In this document: piece after piece, positions 8,052 through 22,550 of the stretch
Numbering within the stretch: the stretch's first letter is position 1
Layout: the number at the start of each line of letters is the position of its first letter
IMG/VR virus record: IMGVR_UViG_3300023192_002910
Coordinates: 1-23,302 of that record
Source of the DNA: a virus
DNA: 23,302 bases
Strand: one strand, 5' to 3'
The notes under the pieces: generated by a model
Databases searched by the model: none
Told to the model about the DNA's origin: nothing
Seen by the model: the letters and a program-made list of their open reading frames with translations, nothing else
Position numbers and translations under genes: made by a program

Positions 8052-8783
8052 TTAACTGAAACTCTCCGATACTTTAATATCATCAGTATTACCGTGCTCT
8101 GTAGTTTCTACAAAACCACTAATTAATTGTCCCGCAACTCGTGTTTGACCATAGTGTATTGGCACACTTTGTCCTGATGAAGTTGTATTGATAAATGATT
8201 CAAATCTATCATTATTGCGTCTTTGTCCGCCATCTATAAATGTTACTTTTTGTGTTCGTGGCTTATTCAGTGCTTGTATTGCTATACTAATAACTAATGA
8301 AATTAGTTGTCCGAAAAAGAATTTGGGAGTAAAAATACCAGCAAAAAATCCTGGTGCAGTTGCCGCTCCTGTAGTAGCGGCAGCACCTGCGGTGGTTGCT
8401 GCGGTGGTTGCTGCAAATGCAGGTAAAATATAAACAGCCAAAAGAATTATTACAACAATAACGACTAATATCAATAAAAATTTACCAAATCCTTTGCCTG
8501 ATCCGTACAAAACTGGAACTATATATAAAACAGAATGTAATTTTTTCTTTAATCTGTCTACAACAAGATCATGTTGAGTTATTGGATTTTTTTCTTTATC
8601 TATAATACAAATATCTTGTGTAACCTTTGTATAACGTAATTCTGTTAAATAATAATTAAGTTTCGGAAATAAATTTATTAATGCACTAATAACATTTGAC
8701 ATATTAGCCGCTTCTATTTCGTGTTCAGATAATCCATTTGTATATTTTCTTAAAGATTTGTGAAAATGTAATTTAATTTTCAT
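8052..8783 (-). CDS. Tail assembly protein I-like, second copy
   Basis: This 243-residue protein matches the lambda gpI layout. An N-terminal beta-grasp-like domain (residues about 1-95) ends in LHSVLYIVPVLYGSGKG. A strongly hydrophobic segment rich in Leu, Ile and Val follows (about 100-128), then an Ala/Thr/Gly-rich stretch. The C-terminal block RRNNDRFESFINTT...IHYGQTRVAGQLISGFVETT corresponds to lambda NTYFSSLDN...LPVLYGEMRVGSRVVSQ. gpI is needed to build the tail tip and acts with J; its exact biochemical role is unclear even in lambda. The start overlaps the previous gene as TGATG, and the stop abuts the J start as TAAATG, so all three are probably coupled. It is clearly paralogous to the gene at 8783-9490: the last 30 residues are nearly the same. 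Confidence 0.87.
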   Translation of the reverse strand: MKIKLHFHKSLRKYTNGLSEHEIEAANMSNVISALINLFPKLNYYLTELRYTKVTQDICIIDKEKNPITQHDLVVDRLKKKLHSVLYIVPVLYGSGKGFGKFLLILVVIVVIILLAVYILPAFAATTAATTAGAAATTGAATAPGFFAGIFTPKFFFGQLISLVISIAIQALNKPRTQKVTFIDGGQRRNNDRFESFINTTSSGQSVPIHYGQTRVAGQLISGFVETTEHGNTDDIKVSESFS

Positions 8784-9490
8784 CAGTTAAACCTTTCAGA
8801 AACTTTGGGATCGTCATCTTTACCGTGTTCAGTAGTTTCTACAAAACCACTAATTAATTGACCAGCAATTCTTGATTGACCATAAATTAACTGTATATTA
8901 GTGCCTGGCGCTGTTGTATTAACTAATCCTTCAAAAAGATTATTATTTCTTCTTGCTGGTGCATCGAACGAGGCTTCTGGTCTTTTGGGTGGTTTATTTA
9001 AAGAGCTAATAATTTGTGATATTATTAATCTAAAAACCATTCCAAAAAGTTTTTGTGGCGTAAAGAAACTTGCAAAAAATCCTGGTGCAGTTGCTCCTAC
9101 TCCACCCGCGCCTTGACTAAATAAAGCACTAAGTCCACCAGCCGCGCCGATCGCGTATGCAGCTATAGCAATAATCGCAATAATCGCAAGCATTTTTCCT
9201 GTCTTACCTGATCCATAAACAACAGGAACCATATATATTTCTTTATGATTTTTTCGTAATGTACCGATTTCGTAATGATATTTATTTACTAAAGCTTTAT
9301 TTTTATCTAAAAAAGCTAAATTTTCTCCAGCCGATCCACTTAAAACTAAACTAAAATAATTATTAAATTTTGGAAAAACGCCTTTTAATGCATTAACAAC
9401 ATCAGTAAAGTCTTTAGCTTCACACTCATAAGTAGTAAGGCCATTAGTATATTTTTGTAATATCTTATGAACGTGAATTTTAACTCTCAT
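8783..9490 (-). CDS. Tail assembly protein I-like, first copy
   Basis: This 235-residue protein starts one base after the stop of the JAB gene. Residues about 1-95 are the small beta-grasp-like domain, ending in KEIYMVPVVYGSGKTGK. Residues about 98-120 are hydrophobic (MLAIIAIIAIAAYAIGAAGG) and could cross or insert into a membrane or pack inside the tip. The Gly/Ala stretch, APGFFASFFTP, RRNNNLFEGLVNTT and LIYGQSRIAGQLISGFVETT blocks match both lambda gpI and the neighbouring copy. The two copies differ most in the hydrophobic region and the N-terminal domain, which suggests an old duplication with separate roles rather than recent redundancy. As in lambda, the gene sits between K-type components and J. 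Confidence 0.87.
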   Translation of the reverse strand: MRVKIHVHKILQKYTNGLTTYECEAKDFTDVVNALKGVFPKFNNYFSLVLSGSAGENLAFLDKNKALVNKYHYEIGTLRKNHKEIYMVPVVYGSGKTGKMLAIIAIIAIAAYAIGAAGGLSALFSQGAGGVGATAPGFFASFFTPQKLFGMVFRLIISQIISSLNKPPKRPEASFDAPARRNNNLFEGLVNTTAPGTNIQLIYGQSRIAGQLISGFVETTEHGKDDDPKVSERFN

Positions 9491-10287: not shown

Positions 10288-10726
10288 CTTTTTTTCTTCT
10301 CCATATACTGTGCGTTTTTTCTCTCCAGTTAGCCCCAAAAAAATTAATCTCTGATTTATGTTTTTCTTCTATGTGAATAAATTTTCCTTCACCTACATAC
10401 ATACCAAAATGAATTGGACGATTTTTACTTGACTTAAATAATATTACATCATATTCTTGAAGGTCTGTCAAATCAACTTTTTGTGCATGATCTTTGCACC
10501 AATCCAATAATTCATCAAAAGTTACTTCAAATGTCCATTTAGTCCCAGTTAATTCTTTTCCTTTTAAATAAGCTTTTCCATCTTTAGATTTTATATCTAA
10601 ATAAACCCAAAGACTAGAAAAAATATTACTTTTTAATTCTCTTTTATAAATAAATTCAATTAATGTAATACAATTTATTTTATTATATGAGTGTGGAATT
10701 CCCAAATATTTGGTATATTTACTCAT
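10274..10726 (-). CDS. NlpC/P60-family peptidase, first of a tandem pair
   Basis: This 150-residue protein starts with ATG inside an ATGA overlap with the radical SAM stop codon. The probable triad is Cys19 (NKINCITLIEFIYKREL), His106 (RPIHFGMYV) and His118 (KFIHIEE). The usual Asp before the catalytic Cys is replaced by Asn, which is tolerated in some members. It shares its length, N-terminal motif and overall layout with the next gene, but the central region (residues about 30-95) has diverged. Its role is likely local cell-wall peptide hydrolysis, or a structural position in the tip if only one of the pair is active. Two full NlpC genes in tandem are unusual next to lambda's single NlpC domain in gpK. 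Confidence 0.85.
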   Translation of the reverse strand: MSKYTKYLGIPHSYNKINCITLIEFIYKRELKSNIFSSLWVYLDIKSKDGKAYLKGKELTGTKWTFEVTFDELLDWCKDHAQKVDLTDLQEYDVILFKSSKNRPIHFGMYVGEGKFIHIEEKHKSEINFFGANWREKTHSIWRRKKDEMV

Positions 10727-11910
10727 AATGATTCATACCATTTTTTATATTCAGGATAAATTTCGACAAAAGGAGGATCATCTCTAACTGATGCCATATG
10801 TTCGTTGTATCTCTTGAAATCTTTTTGTAATTTTAAATTAGTTTCTCCATTATTCATATACCGTAACCAATCTAAAATATTGTTAATTTGAGTTTTGTTA
10901 AAAATAACACCATGTGTTTGTAAAAATTCTTTATAATGTTGATTAATTTTTAATTTTTCTTTTTTAGGTAAAATTTGAATATTTTGTTGTTCAGGAGATA
11001 CTAAACAAGTACCGTGGACTTCTATACCATATTTCTTTGCCCATATTAATAATTTTGGTAAACTGTAAATACTATAAATACTAACCACACTACTAATAGT
11101 AGTTATATATTTTTGCATTTCTGCTACATGTGATGCAAATCTTCCCCATTTAAATTCTGTTCTAGTATATTCTCCTTGTTTACCAAATCCATCACAACTA
11201 GGCCATAATCTAACATCTTTAAATTTTTTCCACAATTTTCTAAGATCATAGTTTTTATATTTTAAAACACTCAAATTTGTATTATAAGTAATAGAAATAT
11301 TAGTATAATTATTCTCTATTAACCAGTCTAATAATTTATAATGACCTTCTTGCATTAATGGTTCGCCACCTGCAAAATATAAATCAGTTAAAGAAGGCGC
11401 AATTTGAGGTAAAGCTTCCCATAATTTATTATTATTTGTCCATTTATCAATAACTCCGACAGGTATTCTATTCAATGCTTTAGAGTCTTTATCCCATCTA
11501 GTTGATAAAACAGGTCCACAAGTTCGGCATCTAAAATTACAAATATTACCAAACCGAATATCTATATATGAAGGCAATTCCCCTAAAAACCCATCTTGTC
11601 TGGTTATAGATTGTCTATATTCTTTATTAGCAAATCTTTCATTAAATACTATTCTTGGACTTCTAATTCCTACTGCTTCTTTTTTATAACAATGTTTAAC
11701 GCATTGTGCTGGCTTTTTACCTTCCATAAAATCTGATCTAAGATTTTTTAGTTCTTGTCCGTTCCAAACATCATTTAAAATATTATCTTCTGAAGAACCT
11801 AAATTAAAATTTTCAGCATCTACGGCTCCCTCAGAAAAACAACATGCTTTATATTTTCCAGCAATATTTCCGTGAAGATGAATCCATGGAAGTATACAAC
11901 CTTTTATCAT
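10723..11910 (-). CDS. Radical SAM protein with N-terminal twitch/SPASM-like domain
   Basis: This 395-residue protein starts at an ATG after an AGGGGA site. The radical SAM core shows CX3CX2C at Cys124, Cys128 and Cys131 (GNICNFRCRTCGP) and GGEP at 181-184 for S-adenosylmethionine binding. Before the core, residues 1-80 resemble a twitch/SPASM auxiliary-cluster domain: Cys5, Cys23-Cys24, then NLGSSEDNILNDVWNGQELK and Cys70-X3-Cys74. SPASM domains usually follow the core, but phage and related proteins with this domain in front are known as twitch-domain radical SAM proteins. Family members with auxiliary iron-sulfur clusters often modify peptides. The gene lies within the tail operon, 17 bases after L and overlapping an NlpC gene, so co-expression with tip proteins is near certain. 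Its substrate is unknown; a tail protein is possible. It may also be an unrelated accessory gene inserted here. Confidence 0.9.
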   Translation of the reverse strand: MIKGCILPWIHLHGNIAGKYKACCFSEGAVDAENFNLGSSEDNILNDVWNGQELKNLRSDFMEGKKPAQCVKHCYKKEAVGIRSPRIVFNERFANKEYRQSITRQDGFLGELPSYIDIRFGNICNFRCRTCGPVLSTRWDKDSKALNRIPVGVIDKWTNNNKLWEALPQIAPSLTDLYFAGGEPLMQEGHYKLLDWLIENNYTNISITYNTNLSVLKYKNYDLRKLWKKFKDVRLWPSCDGFGKQGEYTRTEFKWGRFASHVAEMQKYITTISSVVSIYSIYSLPKLLIWAKKYGIEVHGTCLVSPEQQNIQILPKKEKLKINQHYKEFLQTHGVIFNKTQINNILDWLRYMNNGETNLKLQKDFKRYNEHMASVRDDPPFVEIYPEYKKWYESL

Positions 11911-18100: not shown

Positions 18101-20427
18101 TTTAACGCTTCTGCTGTGGTTGTAAGAGTTTTTCTTAAAGCATCTTGTTTTTTACTTAGTCCTTCGGAAGTAAATGCTGTATTTACCAATGTACTTTGGA
18201 ATTCTTTTGTCATAGCAATTAAAAGGGCAAGCTTTGGAGCTGTTTTTAATACCTCTACACCAAATTCTGTCCCGGCCATCGACTTGCCTTTCGCGCCCGT
18301 ATCTCTTAATGCCTCTTCATTTACACCACTAATAGTAAATGCTTCAACTACTCCCTTCTTATTTTTTATTTCGTCAGCAATCGCATGAAAACGACCAGAT
18401 AATCCAGGAACAGCGTCTTCTAATACTTTGAATAATTCTTTTACTGCTGATTGTAATTCTCCCTTAGCATCTAGAGCGGGATCTAACAATCCTATTTTGA
18501 GAACATTACGCATTTCATCAGAAAGGCCAAAACGCGCCTTTGCTGCATTAGCAATAACACTAGCTGTTATTTCACCATATACCTGCCGTAATTGACTATC
18601 AGTCGCTGTAGAAAGTAATTTGAAAGAAGTTTTTTGTTGCTTAACAGCTTCTAAGATTTCTGATCGCTTAAACCCTAAGCCTTGGGCTTGTAGCACAGAG
18701 GTCAGCTGTCCTTCAAAGATCTTCGGATCAAATGTAAACTTGCCGCCCTGTAAGGCGTTGGATCGTTCCACTATCCTTTTTAATTTTTCTCTTACTTTAG
18801 AAATTCGCTCAGTCGTTTCTTTAAGAACGTCTTCTCCAGTAAATTCTTTTACGCTCACCTTGAACCCTATAATAGTTTGCGCCACTTTAAACTTTTGTTG
18901 TGCATTAAAATATTTCGTCAAACTCGCCTGGGCCTTGAGAGCTGCCTCAGAAGATTTAATTAAAAACTTATTAAATGTTGCTTGTGCACGAGCTGCAGCA
19001 TTTGCTTCTTTTGTATAATTTTCAAAAAACTTTTTAATTGTGTCTCCGGCAGCCTGAAATAGATCAATACCAAAAACAAGTTTACCTATAGTTGAAGCTA
19101 ATATTTGAAGAATAGATATGACAAAAAAGATTTTTCCAATAGCGCCCACTAAAAGGTTAACCGCTCTAGTTGCCCCCGTAATTATTCTGGTAGCTATAGC
19201 GGTTGCAGTAGCAGCTATTTGCGCTGCTTTACCTAAACTCTTATAAGCTAGGTTAGCTTGCTTCAAAGCAGTTACAACCTGTACTCCCGCTCTTCCTTGA
19301 GCCTCAAGAGTTTTAATAAGGGTACGAAGGTCTACTGCTGTTAAAGTGCCGGCTCTTCCTAAATTAATTATTTCTTTAGCCGCTAGTTGAGTAGCTCTAG
19401 TTCCTCTAATCAATGATAGATTAAGACCCTTTAATGTTTTACTTAAAGTTGTTTGTAACGCTGTGCTTGCTTCCGTAGCTCTAATAGAAAAAGTTTCAGC
19501 TAACCTGGCTCCAAAAGCAGTTACAGACACCGTTGCTGATGCTAGCCCTGCACTAACCACTTGACTAAGTTTAGAAAATATAAGACCCGCTAATAACCCA
19601 GCCGCTGCTAGAGTATTTGTAAAATTACCTGATATAAATTCAATAAAAGGGCTAATTGCTTGGGCAAGAATACCTAATAAGGCATCAGAAAGATCTCCTA
19701 AATTTGCACTAAATTTATTTAGTGATTCTGCACTTGTAGTAATACTTGTATCAATAATTGAGAATTTTTTAAGTCCTTGGTCAATTACAGCATTAGCAAA
19801 AGCTTGAGAACGTTCGTAAGTAGTTAAATCTGCTGCAGCCTTACCAATAGAATCTGCATATTTTCTCACAGCTTCATCAAGCCGAACAATAATACCTAAT
19901 TCGTCCAAAATTTCTGGTTCAATCTTAGCCACACCACGAACTAATCTGTCTTGAGAATCTGCTAAATTTCTTCCCAAAGCAATTGAAGCTTTTAATGCAA
20001 CTGTTGTTAACTTTTCAATTTGTTCTGAGCCGAATCCTGCAGATAAAGCAAGGTTAGCGGTTGCTGCGGCTTTTGCAATACTTAGTTGGCCTTTGGTGAT
20101 TTCTTTAATTTTACTAAGAATTTTATCCCCTGATTCTCCAACCGTTGCAGCAAGAACTCTCGTTCCTTCAATAGCTTGTTGTGCTGCAGCCGCCTTATTT
20201 AAAGCACTAAAAGCAGCAGTTAAGGCAAAGATGGTCGCTGCCGCACCAGCATACGCAGCAACTACGACTCCTAAGTCCGATGCTTGGGCAGAAAACTGTC
20301 TTCCTGACGAGGCACTAGCTTGTCCCAGACGTGTTTGAGCACGACCAATAGATTCGGTTGTTTTGGCCGCTTGTTTACCACCTTTAGTTTTAAAAGTAGT
20401 TTCAATTATGTTTTTAATAATTGCCAT
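15184..20427 (-). CDS. Tape measure protein
   Basis: At 1747 residues this is the second longest gene in the window. The ATG overlaps the chaperone stop as TAATG. Residues about 45-230 are the conserved Ala-rich helical domain (LTTVALKASIALGRNLADSQ, DELGIIVRLDEAVRKYADSI). Hydrophobic segments at about 250-300 and 425-460 (IFFVISILQILASTIGKLVF) could insert in the membrane for DNA entry. Residues about 870-1400 are long Lys/Glu-rich coiled coils. Near the C-terminus, FFTAIEEGTLTMENFKKGVK and a Gly/Phe/Ala-rich stretch lead to FASGG repeats and DNIPAMLEPGEFIMRKQAV, typical of lambda-type tape measures. The protein sets tail length and fills the tube; from lambda scaling the tail would be roughly 250-300 nm. 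No lysozyme or peptidase domain was recognised. Confidence 0.95.
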   Translation of the reverse strand: MAIIKNIIETTFKTKGGKQAAKTTESIGRAQTRLGQASASSGRQFSAQASDLGVVVAAYAGAAATIFALTAAFSALNKAAAAQQAIEGTRVLAATVGESGDKILSKIKEITKGQLSIAKAAATANLALSAGFGSEQIEKLTTVALKASIALGRNLADSQDRLVRGVAKIEPEILDELGIIVRLDEAVRKYADSIGKAAADLTTYERSQAFANAVIDQGLKKFSIIDTSITTSAESLNKFSANLGDLSDALLGILAQAISPFIEFISGNFTNTLAAAGLLAGLIFSKLSQVVSAGLASATVSVTAFGARLAETFSIRATEASTALQTTLSKTLKGLNLSLIRGTRATQLAAKEIINLGRAGTLTAVDLRTLIKTLEAQGRAGVQVVTALKQANLAYKSLGKAAQIAATATAIATRIITGATRAVNLLVGAIGKIFFVISILQILASTIGKLVFGIDLFQAAGDTIKKFFENYTKEANAAARAQATFNKFLIKSSEAALKAQASLTKYFNAQQKFKVAQTIIGFKVSVKEFTGEDVLKETTERISKVREKLKRIVERSNALQGGKFTFDPKIFEGQLTSVLQAQGLGFKRSEILEAVKQQKTSFKLLSTATDSQLRQVYGEITASVIANAAKARFGLSDEMRNVLKIGLLDPALDAKGELQSAVKELFKVLEDAVPGLSGRFHAIADEIKNKKGVVEAFTISGVNEEALRDTGAKGKSMAGTEFGVEVLKTAPKLALLIAMTKEFQSTLVNTAFTSEGLSKKQDALRKTLTTTAEALKKLGTKDALGALKTMQELLGDDSLVQSASKIATNLATLGDSLKDLFGKEIKAAKDLYKVIRLDSEGVLHLNEDAVDVERSRLDYLKRGVELIAVRVDYEKKNKQTVAASYYLGKKTTELLELSAKEGEIANKTASILQGIYTKINLEIEKYTKQLDKANDKANLLLTTLTNQLSILEEQEKINANDIATKKDQAALSQKEALLQTKLKVGTDTGLHNSKLALDLDKSKLKLINAQVAQDIASMSRLKKSLEYSEQILIVAIKTAAEDERRANALKSSVASAFGNLFTEKDAQVIELEALRIDASEAERLLERQQKQFELDKRLANFKVDEQKKIFNQEQILINQRFKYEELKLKNEKTIINERIKILNDEKMRVGPDATSRIEQANLAKASKIATAEAAFVQRKIAKEFLDKQLDLMFEQAKALREHSTALGDVLFMHVKKIADTLGVKVKVSREEFGAQLGIEELGEKVMELKMNNILLLNTYESINTKLKEIANQEFENKKIQINAKKDENLAAIKNKLAILELEKLAFVERKGLLDEQKKIDETILQTKINAARHELSGVIDSSQQAVDAAKREVAAKNKAIESQEKLNSILNNEFLKIIDDIVGAIRNRLKQGAEDFFTAIEEGTLTMENFKKGVKDLFIGLLSDIGKSVFNRLVMEPLEQGIADIGKNLLGGILGDSFVKRDGTSAQKALFVQVVAGGAGGGQGLLQKALAPKQSANINDTLTASNDTLAISQNAVLASTNNATGGLNIFGSALESGSADLTLAGTQFTQGFEQIFSETGSFTAGLGNIFSGAFNGILGLGKNILGGLGSAIFGTGAAGTGLLSGIGGFFASMFGGGASDLPQGFASGGLVRRMAAGGLINQSNQRGIRHFASGGVQRDNIPAMLEPGEFIMRKQAVSKAGISAMQRMNGTGGSGQNISVNVSNEGAPKEADSSPDISITPEQIVVDVILRDLKNNGAIRRGIREQT

Positions 20428-21113
20428 TATCTTCTTGCCCTATGTTTAGATTCTTCTAATTTTCTTTGAGCTTCATAATGTTTTGCACTTTCTAAAATAC
20501 AAATTTGAAGTAAGTCAAATGCATCTCGGTTTTTTTCAATTCCGTAGATAGCCATGATATCGCCAAGTCCAGAAAAATCTTTACCTAACCATAACCCGCT
20601 CATACCTTCAATTTTATCAGGTAAAATATTAAACAAAAATAATGCAAGTTGAGCTTCATAAGATAAATCGTTTATCTCAAGAGGTGTTTCCATTTCGTCT
20701 GGTTCCCACCCCATTTGCTCACACATTAGCAAATATTGTTCGCGAGTTACGCCTCCACTTTGGAACTGGTTGCGGAGGTAGTCGGTGAGTTTTTTACGTT
20801 CTGAAAACTCAACATATTCATCTCCATTCATTGAACTAATGTCAACAGGAAGAAGCATAGGAAGATGTTTAATTTGTAATCCTTTCCAACCTTTAATAGC
20901 GCGAATTGTATACGCCTCTAAAAATTTGTCGTTATCAATTTCTTCTTCTCTCTGACGAGTACGTTTATTAAATTTAAATGTTAGACTCTGATTACGAATC
21001 TTCATTAAATCTTCTCTTGTTAAATAAACCAGATTTACAACAAATCCGTCAATATCTGGAAACTCAACATCGACAACTGTTTCAGTTGCCATTAGGGATG
21101 CAATTTTGCTCAT
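20427..21113 (-). CDS. Tail assembly chaperone (G/T-like), single frame
   Basis: This 228-residue protein sits between the major tail protein and tape measure, the place of lambda G and G-T. The N-terminal part (VEFPDIDGFVVNLVYLTRED, then FLEAYTIRAIKGWKGLQ) resembles tail chaperone domains. The C-terminal part (about 150-228) has GMSGLWLGKDFSGLGDIMAI and ends in a basic tail, RKLEESKHRARR. Such chaperones coat the tape measure and recruit major tail protein. Most make two forms through a -1 frameshift. Here one frame covers both parts and the stop overlaps the next ATG, so I see no room for a separate downstream frame and no good slippery site. The strong ribosome binding site GGAGAGGGGAA can pair with an upstream RNA loop, so translation may be regulated. 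Confidence 0.75.
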   Translation of the reverse strand: MSKIASLMATETVVDVEFPDIDGFVVNLVYLTREDLMKIRNQSLTFKFNKRTRQREEEIDNDKFLEAYTIRAIKGWKGLQIKHLPMLLPVDISSMNGDEYVEFSERKKLTDYLRNQFQSGGVTREQYLLMCEQMGWEPDEMETPLEINDLSYEAQLALFLFNILPDKIEGMSGLWLGKDFSGLGDIMAIYGIEKNRDAFDLLQICILESAKHYEAQRKLEESKHRARR

Positions 21114-21117
21114 TTTA

Positions 21118-21128
21118 TTCCCCTCTCC
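21118..21128 (-). promoter_or_regulatory. Chaperone ribosome binding site, complementary to an upstream loop
   Basis: The minus strand reads GGAGAGGGGAA just before AATAAA... ATG at 21113. The segment GAGGGGAA (21125-21118) is a perfect 8-base reverse complement of TTCCCCTC in the apical loop at 21181-21174. Pairing would cover the ribosome binding site. Confidence 0.6.
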
Positions 21129-21135
21129 TTTATAT

Positions 21136-21215
21136 AAAAAGGGTGTTCACCGATTTCAACTTGAGTTTTAGCCGAGGGGAAGAGCTAAAACACATTGTTA
21201 ACACGATGAACACCC
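21136..21215 (-). terminator. Terminator-like long hairpin after the major tail protein gene
   Basis: On the minus strand a perfect 9-base-pair stem GGGTGTTCA (21215-21207) / TGAACACCC (21149-21141) is followed at once by TTTTT (21140-21136), the form of an intrinsic terminator. It encloses another perfect 8-base-pair stem, GTTTTAGC/GCTAAAAC (21191-21184 and 21172-21165), with an 11-base loop TCTTCCCCTCG. Short pairs between the two stems would make one hairpin of about 75 bases with internal loops. It would lower transcription into the chaperone and tape measure genes relative to the abundant major tail protein. A structure this long is unusual for a plain terminator, and termination is probably partial because essential genes lie downstream. 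Confidence 0.7.
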
Positions 21216-21227
21216 ACATGAAATTTT

Positions 21228-21249
21228 AATTTCTACCCCTCTAGAAATT
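21228..21249 (-). promoter_or_regulatory. Short hairpin with GAGGGG loop right after the major tail protein stop
   Basis: The minus strand has a perfect 8-base-pair stem AATTTCTA/TAGAAATT closed by the six-base loop GAGGGG (21241-21236). It begins five bases after the major tail protein stop codon. Its loop is fully complementary to CCCCTC (21179-21174) in the loop of the next hairpin, allowing a six-base-pair kissing contact. It is followed by AAAATTT, not a T-run, so it is a poor terminator by itself. Confidence 0.55.
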
Positions 21250-21254
21250 TAGTA

Positions 21255-22550
21255 TTACGCTGCTTGCGTAACAAATGTTACGTTTGCACCTGCACCTCTC
21301 TGTGCAGTTGTTTCTTGCGCTAAGAACTCAGCCGTTAAACCAACCACATCTTCAATAGCATGTGTTGGGAAACTAAACTGACACGCCTGCATATCAATTG
21401 CAAAATAAGGAGCAGTTGCACCACCAATTACTAGATTGGCTTGTGTTCCTTGTGCAATTTGAGGCGATGTATTTGATGCAATATTACGTAGGAAAGAAGC
21501 AGAATTGTCACTTGCTGTCGATCCGCTACGTAGATATGCACTAATAGAACCAGAAATAGCCTGAGTACCAGTAAACTGAGTAATAGGCTGATTTAGAGAG
21601 GCAAGCTCTTCTGGTGTTAAATAAGTAATATTGTTATTAACATCAAAAGTCAATCCCGTTACAGGGAAAGTATGACTTGCTGAATCTCCACTGGAAGTAT
21701 CAGTAATATCAATAGTAGATAAACGGTTTTTAATAAATTCAGCACTTGTTGCCCCGCCGGAGGCAATATTGTAAGAATTCCAAGTATGATACTTTCCAGT
21801 AACAGCAACTGCTGGAAGATCAATACTAGAATTAGCTGTTACAGATGTACCATTATTTAATTCACCACCAAAAACTGAGATGGCGACATTACGAGGTCCG
21901 CCTGTAAGTTCTACAAGATTAGTTGCAAAACCTGTCCATGTAGTAGTCGCAATTCCATCAATAGCAGCATCAATTGATGCTTGGTTGACAGTAGCATTTG
22001 CAAGTTGATAAACAACGTTATCAACTTTTAAGTACATGTGTGATTCGCTTGCTGTAGCAAAATTAGGATTACTTGCCGCAACATTAGCTGCCGCAGTTCG
22101 ATTATTGTTTTCCCATTTTGCAATAGTAGTTGCGCCTGTTCCTTGCCATGCACTTTGCATAACCGTACCAGTTGCTGGGGCAGTTGCACTTAATAGTGCT
22201 TGCCACAGGAACCAATCCGCAACAGGAGTAACATTTCCGTTTTGTAATATATTATTAGTCGTTGTACCCAAAGGTGAGGTAGCGCGAGTGGGTTTCAAGT
22301 AAGCCTGAAGATTCCAATCAACAGGGTTAATAGCTGTATTGAACCTCTGTTGTGAACGATCAGGAGTTGAACCACTTTCCAAAGACGTAATGTCTTGGGT
22401 TGCTGCTGCTTGACTAAACGCATATCCCGCTAAAACCTCTATCTGCCAGGTATTTGCTGGGCTTACAGCCGTAACAGCCGCTCCACCGTTGATATCAACT
22501 GTAGAGTAAAAAACCCTTGTATTTCTTTGTAAATTTAATGACGCAGCCAT
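21255..22550 (-). CDS. Major tail protein (tail tube subunit)
   Basis: This 431-residue protein starts at an ATG behind a strong AAAAGGAG site that overlaps the end of the previous gene, fitting high expression. It has no signal peptide or membrane segment and is rich in Ala, Thr, Asn and Ser with few charged residues. Segments such as TQDITSLESGSTPDRSQQRF, PVDWNLQAYLKPT and EDVVGLTAEFLAQ are of the kind seen in siphophage tube proteins. Position between the tail terminator and chaperone genes corresponds to lambda V. It is larger than lambda gpV (246 residues), so it may carry an extra exposed domain in the middle (about 120-300). Hairpins after its stop codon probably set it apart from the genes behind it. 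Confidence 0.85.
   Translation of the reverse strand: MAASLNLQRNTRVFYSTVDINGGAAVTAVSPANTWQIEVLAGYAFSQAAATQDITSLESGSTPDRSQQRFNTAINPVDWNLQAYLKPTRATSPLGTTTNNILQNGNVTPVADWFLWQALLSATAPATGTVMQSAWQGTGATTIAKWENNNRTAAANVAASNPNFATASESHMYLKVDNVVYQLANATVNQASIDAAIDGIATTTWTGFATNLVELTGGPRNVAISVFGGELNNGTSVTANSSIDLPAVAVTGKYHTWNSYNIASGGATSAEFIKNRLSTIDITDTSSGDSASHTFPVTGLTFDVNNNITYLTPEELASLNQPITQFTGTQAISGSISAYLRSGSTASDNSASFLRNIASNTSPQIAQGTQANLVIGGATAPYFAIDMQACQFSFPTHAIEDVVGLTAEFLAQETTAQRGAGANVTFVTQAA

Follow-up and report, generated by a model that had tools for sequence, protein, structure and literature searches.

The gap between the major tail protein (MTP) gene and the tail assembly chaperone (TAC) gene of the virus record IMGVR_UViG_3300023192_002910 (IMG/VR) is best read, from sequence comparison, as a member of a conserved family of cis-acting structured RNAs, the conserved fold of which is best described as two hairpins joined by kissing loops. 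The element, shared by many uncultured phages that form a large group, is probably a previously undescribed control of tail protein amounts. In the fuller reading, the loop of the second hairpin (loop 2) would be shared between the loop of the first (loop 1) and the ribosome binding site (RBS) of TAC, and this reading as a whole has, in our judgement, an even chance of being correct. The stretch of DNA analysed, positions 1 to 23,302 of the record (23,302 nucleotides), is referred to below as the window.

Gene context and predicted fold in the window

An earlier note on this DNA had placed two hairpins with complementary loops, together with a matching RBS, at the coordinates listed below, and reading of the minus strand and folding with RNAfold confirmed each of them. 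Hairpin 2 had been presented as an apical stem, which is present; its lower stem (the 21215-21141 hairpin) and the T-run at 21140-21136 had been missed. The features of the locus are as follows.

21255 to 22550, minus strand: MTP gene, 431 aa (phrog_3575, E 1.8e-49), with its stop codon at 21257-21255
21228 to 21249, minus strand: hairpin 1, with an 8-bp stem AATTTCTA/TAGAAATT (RNAfold)
21236 to 21241, minus strand: loop 1, GAGGGG, the kissing partner of loop 2
21141 to 21215, minus strand: the whole of hairpin 2, one long three-tier hairpin (RNAfold)
21215-21204/21152-21141, minus strand: outer stem of hairpin 2, 12 bp, followed by a bulge (RNAfold)
21201-21197/21160-21156, minus strand: middle stem of hairpin 2, followed by an internal loop (RNAfold)
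21191-21183/21173-21165, minus strand: apical stem of hairpin 2, 9 bp (RNAfold)
21174 to 21181, minus strand: loop 2, TTCCCCTC, with CCCCTC at 21179-21174, in the apical loop
21136 to 21140, minus strand: T-run 3' of hairpin 2, a possible weak intrinsic terminator in the window clade, not conserved
21118 to 21130, minus strand: TAC ribosome binding region AAGGAGAGGGGAA, containing the RBS GAGGGGAA at 21125-21118
20427 to 21113, minus strand: TAC gene, 228 aa (phrog_3914 and phrog_313), with its ATG at 21113

In the window, 6 nt of loop 2 are complementary to loop 1 (as many as 14 nt elsewhere) and 8 nt to the TAC RBS, and the same CCCCTC serves both pairings, as the earlier note had proposed. 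Both hairpins were present, and both loop cores unpaired, in the RNAfold fold of the region, which was more stable than its shuffled versions (z = -2.9, 0/200; RNAfold). GAGGGG or its complement occurs five times in the 23.3 kb (3.3 expected), three of these occurrences lying in the element, and the arrangement GAGGGG...CCCCTC...GAGGGG was found once in the window and not at all in 100 shuffles. Around the middle of hairpin 2 (window positions 21201-21193 and 21165-21153), an invariant C-G pair, an A-rich internal loop and a 3'-side bulge were observed, also in relatives; the internal loop and bulge could bend the hairpin, moving loop 2 toward hairpin 1 or toward the RBS.

Whereas most adjacent tail genes of the window overlap or have almost no space between them, MTP and TAC are separated by 141 nt in the window and by 121-159 nt in all relatives. 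The TAC stop codon overlaps the tape measure start at 20427 (ORF list), and an ORF of 1747 aa, overlapping TAC, occupies the tape measure position, an arrangement that fits the translational coupling of the tape measure suggested previously.

Several further observations concern the genes themselves. The two usual frames of the chaperone are fused in the window (20427-21113) into one frame of 228 aa. Close relatives carry approximately 101 nt extra just 5' of a conserved AAAAAAC (near window position 20798), at which the usual -1 frameshift apparently produces the G and GT forms. In the window, the two frames are fused in this shorter version, and the missing nucleotides may reflect either a genuine deletion or a fault of assembly. 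In another locus (L001, positions 2047-2790, on a contig shared with L163), the entire chaperone is encoded in one frame with no stop after AAAAAAC, so the fused form is present elsewhere among the relatives too. In addition, the tail gene cluster of the window includes a radical SAM-like gene (10723-11910; phrog_14086, E 2e-7), and two adjacent genes (8052-8783 and 8783-9490) each match phrog_32 (tail assembly protein) along almost the entire gene, likely as a result of tandem duplication.

Distribution of the element among relatives

Relatives were collected by chaperone-based scans of IMG/VR, in which about 300 were found; one further scaffold came from a genome bin assigned to SAR86. A total of 376 copies of homologous loci had sufficient upstream DNA, some of them being overlapping fetches of one contig, and the element was found 5' of TAC in 373 of these, as 119 distinct sequences, which were reduced at 92% similarity to 61 representatives. 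The three loci of the 376 in which it was absent belong to three named T5-like phages, where a different gene precedes TAC and TAC starts right after that gene. Among named phages, the chaperone is also closest to that of T5-like phages of enterics and Vibrio (approximately 30-38% identity), and a DNA-level search found no match among named phages.

A pattern search of nine long phage records returned one site each in eight; the ninth, that of L133, was unmatched because the final GAGG of the pattern cannot match the AGGGGG present at the RBS in its group. The pattern was absent from two T5-like genomes searched whole. When IMG/VR was scanned with the pattern, at least 116 newly fetched loci were obtained among the matches listed, 93 of them with TAC adjoining; the other 23 comprised one locus with family sequence at a contig end (L302) and matches that were chance-like and mostly G+C-rich. 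The only match in bacterial genome contigs (L235; LUQU01000016.1) was a 5-kb scaffold from a Red Sea sample, binned as SAR86, which is possibly a hint of the host, or a binning error.

Covariation in the stems and in the kissing helix

Comparison of the relatives showed the predicted fold, hairpin 1 followed by the long hairpin 2, to be conserved. The consensus fold of the 61 representatives contains the outer stem, with 11 contiguous pairs, and the middle stem, and compensatory changes were found in 13 of the 16 consensus pairs of hairpin 2, with up to 29 both-sided changes in one pair. Hairpin 1 is poorly alignable across clades and covaries inside two other clades, with both-sided changes in 7 of 10 pairs (7 sequences) and in 5 of 10 pairs (second clade, 9 sequences), respectively; under constrained folding it was weak or missing in about 4 of the 61 representatives. 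In the minimum-energy fold of all distinct elements folded, hairpin 2 left its CCCC(C)TC unpaired, and few letters of the element are invariant outside the loops.

The GAGGGG/CCCCTC core of the kissing helix pairs in 61/61 representatives, and because this core is invariant, evidence of covariation was sought beside it. The helix comprises at least 6 bp, commonly 7-11. At position 7, G-C, A-T and G-T predominate (87% paired, versus 76% when shuffled), and position 8 is A-T in 20 representatives, T-A in 13 and C-G in 6 (70% paired, versus 38% when shuffled), with none of 1000 shuffles as high at either position. Under a phylogeny-aware null, for which changes in loop 2 were placed on the chaperone tree, P values of 0.004 (position 8) and 0.037 (position 7) were obtained. 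Double changes on single branches, for example TA to AT and GC to TA, were seen in the flanks of the core, and the number of G residues in loop 1 tracks the number of C residues in loop 2 (4/4 in 16 representatives, 5/5 in 32). As judged from these alignments, the pairing of loop 1 with loop 2 is real. The earlier note had called for a covariance check in relatives and had named, as an outcome that would speak against its model, stems being kept while loop complementarity was lost; loops 1 and 2 remained complementary in 61/61, with covariation at positions 7 and 8, and no covariation was found for the pairing of loop 2 with the RBS.

Match between loop 2 and the TAC ribosome binding site

GAGGGG was present at the TAC site in 49 of the 61 representatives. 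In a smaller set, it was found in 28 of 39 TAC sites, compared to 1 of 145 stretches 5' of other ORFs from the same loci, these being mechanical ORFs and not curated genes. The MTP start in the same phages is always preceded by the strong Shine-Dalgarno sequence (SD) AAGGAG, in the window as well as in 56/56 relatives, so TAC keeps a different site, which is weaker by its match to the anti-SD; in the window clade, the TAC site also has an AAGGAG-like SD, which shares bases with its GAGGGG. Complementarity of the RBS to loop 2 was lowered in 11 of the 61 representatives (7 with GAGAGG, 3 with GAGG and 1 with GAGGG), all of which retained the kiss. The GAGAGG clade (7 representatives) has 4 contiguous bp, or 7 of 8 with one mismatch, and the GAGG clade (3 representatives) has 5-6 bp; in a twelfth representative, with AGGGGG, the register is shifted and 8 bp with loop 2 are retained. 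In the chaperone tree, the sequences with GAGG form the sister group of the large GAGGGG clade, and those with GAGAGG branch close to the base, indicating that the site has changed at least twice. No covariation between loop 2 and the RBS was found among the 61 representatives, in which positions 7-9 of the RBS are independent of loop 2, and the G-run of the RBS stays at 4 whether loop 2 has 4 or 5 C residues.

The linker between hairpin 2 and the RBS is 6-22 nt long (6-9 nt in many clades) and loop 2 sits approximately 24 bp up hairpin 2; we estimate that with the shortest linkers, pairing of loop 2 with the RBS would need a bend at the bulge or a partial opening of the hairpin. According to duplex energies, the kiss is the stronger pairing in 54 of the 61 representatives, while in the window clade the energies of the two pairings are similar or favour the one with the RBS. 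Taken across the clades, the sequences strongly suggest that in most of them the TAC RBS has been kept as a weak, special copy of loop 1 that would be able to pair with CCCCTC, and loop 1 and this weak RBS probably compete for loop 2.

Proposed mechanism

The distance from the MTP stop codon to the start of loop 1 is 9-25 nt (median 14), so that the 5' strand of hairpin 1 would fall under a ribosome terminating on MTP, in agreement with the previous suggestion that hairpin 1 lies close enough to the stop to be disturbed in this way. This spacing, together with the sharing of loop 2, makes competition the most likely mechanism. Loop 2, as the shared partner, would leave the TAC site open when kissing loop 1; if loop 1 were removed, as might be done by ribosomes completing MTP, loop 2 would become free to cover the TAC site, and translation of TAC and the tape measure would be lowered. 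The element would thereby hold the scarce TAC and tape measure proteins far below MTP within one operon. It is plausible that translation of MTP triggers such a switch. The complete three-way version, in which ribosomes finishing MTP would directly throttle TAC and the tape measure and the RNA would act as a protein-free sensor of stoichiometry, is put forward tentatively and seems somewhat improbable in full. In lambda, the tail contains approximately 192 copies of MTP and the chaperones are absent from the virion (PMC5009743), and a strong boundary between MTP and TAC therefore makes biological sense.

Alternative explanations

A static role is the main rival, because the kiss and the stems are universal and the full match to the RBS is not. 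As a spacer or in mRNA processing, the kissed fold would cap and stabilise the MTP message or be cut by an RNase III-type (double-strand-specific) RNase, and would stop MTP ribosomes from running into TAC; TAC would be low owing to its weak SD, and the match of loop 2 would be secondary. Hairpin 2, being long and having an internal loop, resembles the RNase III sites of phage T7, which is in keeping with such a role. So is the retention of a 121-159 nt gap in all relatives, as against the overlapping or near-abutting tail genes of the window, and loss of the timP pseudoknot also reduced mRNA levels (PMC11228461). A static role, however, explains neither the specificity of GAGGGG for the TAC site nor the matching of both sites by a single loop, and we regard it as possible but doubtful. 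The element could also be an operator: MTP, TAC or another phage protein would bind to the kissed RNA, or to the GAGGGG repeats, and repress translation of TAC as its own amount rises. Autogenous operators are common in phages, and the recurrence of GAGGGG in loop 1 and at the RBS, as well as the invariant C-G pair in hairpin 2, would suit a protein ligand; the covarying flanks of the loops nevertheless favour base pairing over the reading of sequence, and the scarcity of invariant letters outside the loops likewise makes a protein operator unlikely.

The 12-bp stem of the window with TTTTT directly 3' of it, and the T-run in many relatives, would be accounted for if hairpin 2 were an ordinary or attenuating intrinsic terminator with incidental loop matches. 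Many clades, however, have no run of five T residues (for example, ACCTTATG and TTCATTTA), and the first 8 bases 3' of hairpin 2 vary by clade (for example, TTTTTATA versus ACCTTATG); with the T-run not being kept across relatives, this reading was rejected. It would also leave the loop complementarity in 61/61 representatives unexplained, and a terminator scan with a loop limit of 3-8 bases, which would miss a long compound hairpin, listed nothing here; the probability that we assign to it is very small. A leader-peptide attenuator, considered for an ORF (MWVFIVLT...) running through hairpin 2 in the window, was also rejected, its start codon and frame not being conserved across the representatives. 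Short G-rich and C-rich loops may be complementary by chance, and six-base matches are indeed common in isolation (GAGGGG alone, 5 found versus 3.3 expected), but the arrangement was absent in 100 shuffles, 119 distinct sequences conserve the element with covariation, and at least 116 newly fetched IMG/VR loci, 93 with TAC adjacent, were among the matches listed. Conservation and covariation refute chance for the pairing of loop 1 with loop 2, and as an explanation of the element it is extremely improbable.

Relation to known systems

Among the known systems closest to the proposed element are the pseudoknot switches of repZ/repA in IncI-alpha, IncB and IncL/M plasmids, reportedly described by Asano and Mizobuchi in 1998 and by others. 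In repZ, ribosomes on an upstream frame melt a hairpin and thereby alter the long-range loop pairing that governs the downstream RBS, a sequence of events (upstream translation, melting of a hairpin, altered pairing at a downstream RBS) that the proposed switch would share. In the plasmid systems, by contrast, the pseudoknot has an activating role, and what is translated upstream is a short leader peptide controlled by antisense RNA; the element instead follows a full structural gene, translation of which is predicted to act in the opposite direction. The autogenous pseudoknot operators of T4 gene 32, rpsO and the L20 leader are similar in that translation within an operon is set by tertiary pairing of the RNA close to an RBS; they differ in binding a protein, which the candidate element is not known to do, and the element matches no Rfam family.

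In the timP mRNA of enterobacteria (type I toxin-antitoxin), a pseudoknot is required to open the RBS (PMC11228461). As in the element, there are two upstream stem-loops that pair, over approximately 7 bp in timP, with covariation; the mutually exclusive conformations of timP and its otherwise sequestered RBS (PMC11228461) would be shared by the proposed switch, and timP thus provides a precedent in which a covarying loop-loop pairing decides the use of a sequestered RBS. It differs in that its RBS is held in a stem-loop of its own and not by a kissing loop, the signal comes from a small RNA, and the system is not sited between phage structural genes.

The author of the earlier note knew of no described element of this form. 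In keeping with this, no Rfam 15 covariance model scored above its gathering threshold, with no credible match in the window region or in 20 diverse relatives, and no kissing loop or pseudoknot element near phage tail genes was found in the open-access literature searched. Long-range pairing that governs an RBS is a known principle; this element and its place are, as far as the open-access literature was searched, new.

Tailed phages need hundreds of tube subunits and very few molecules of tape measure and chaperone, all from adjacent genes, and how these ratios are set, apart from the chaperone frameshift, is little explained. The RNA family added by the present analysis is described neither in Rfam nor in the open-access papers searched. 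With a conserved and so far unannotated RNA carrying covarying kissing loops at the boundary of MTP and TAC, the question of ratio becomes one that can be tested by two-gene reporters.
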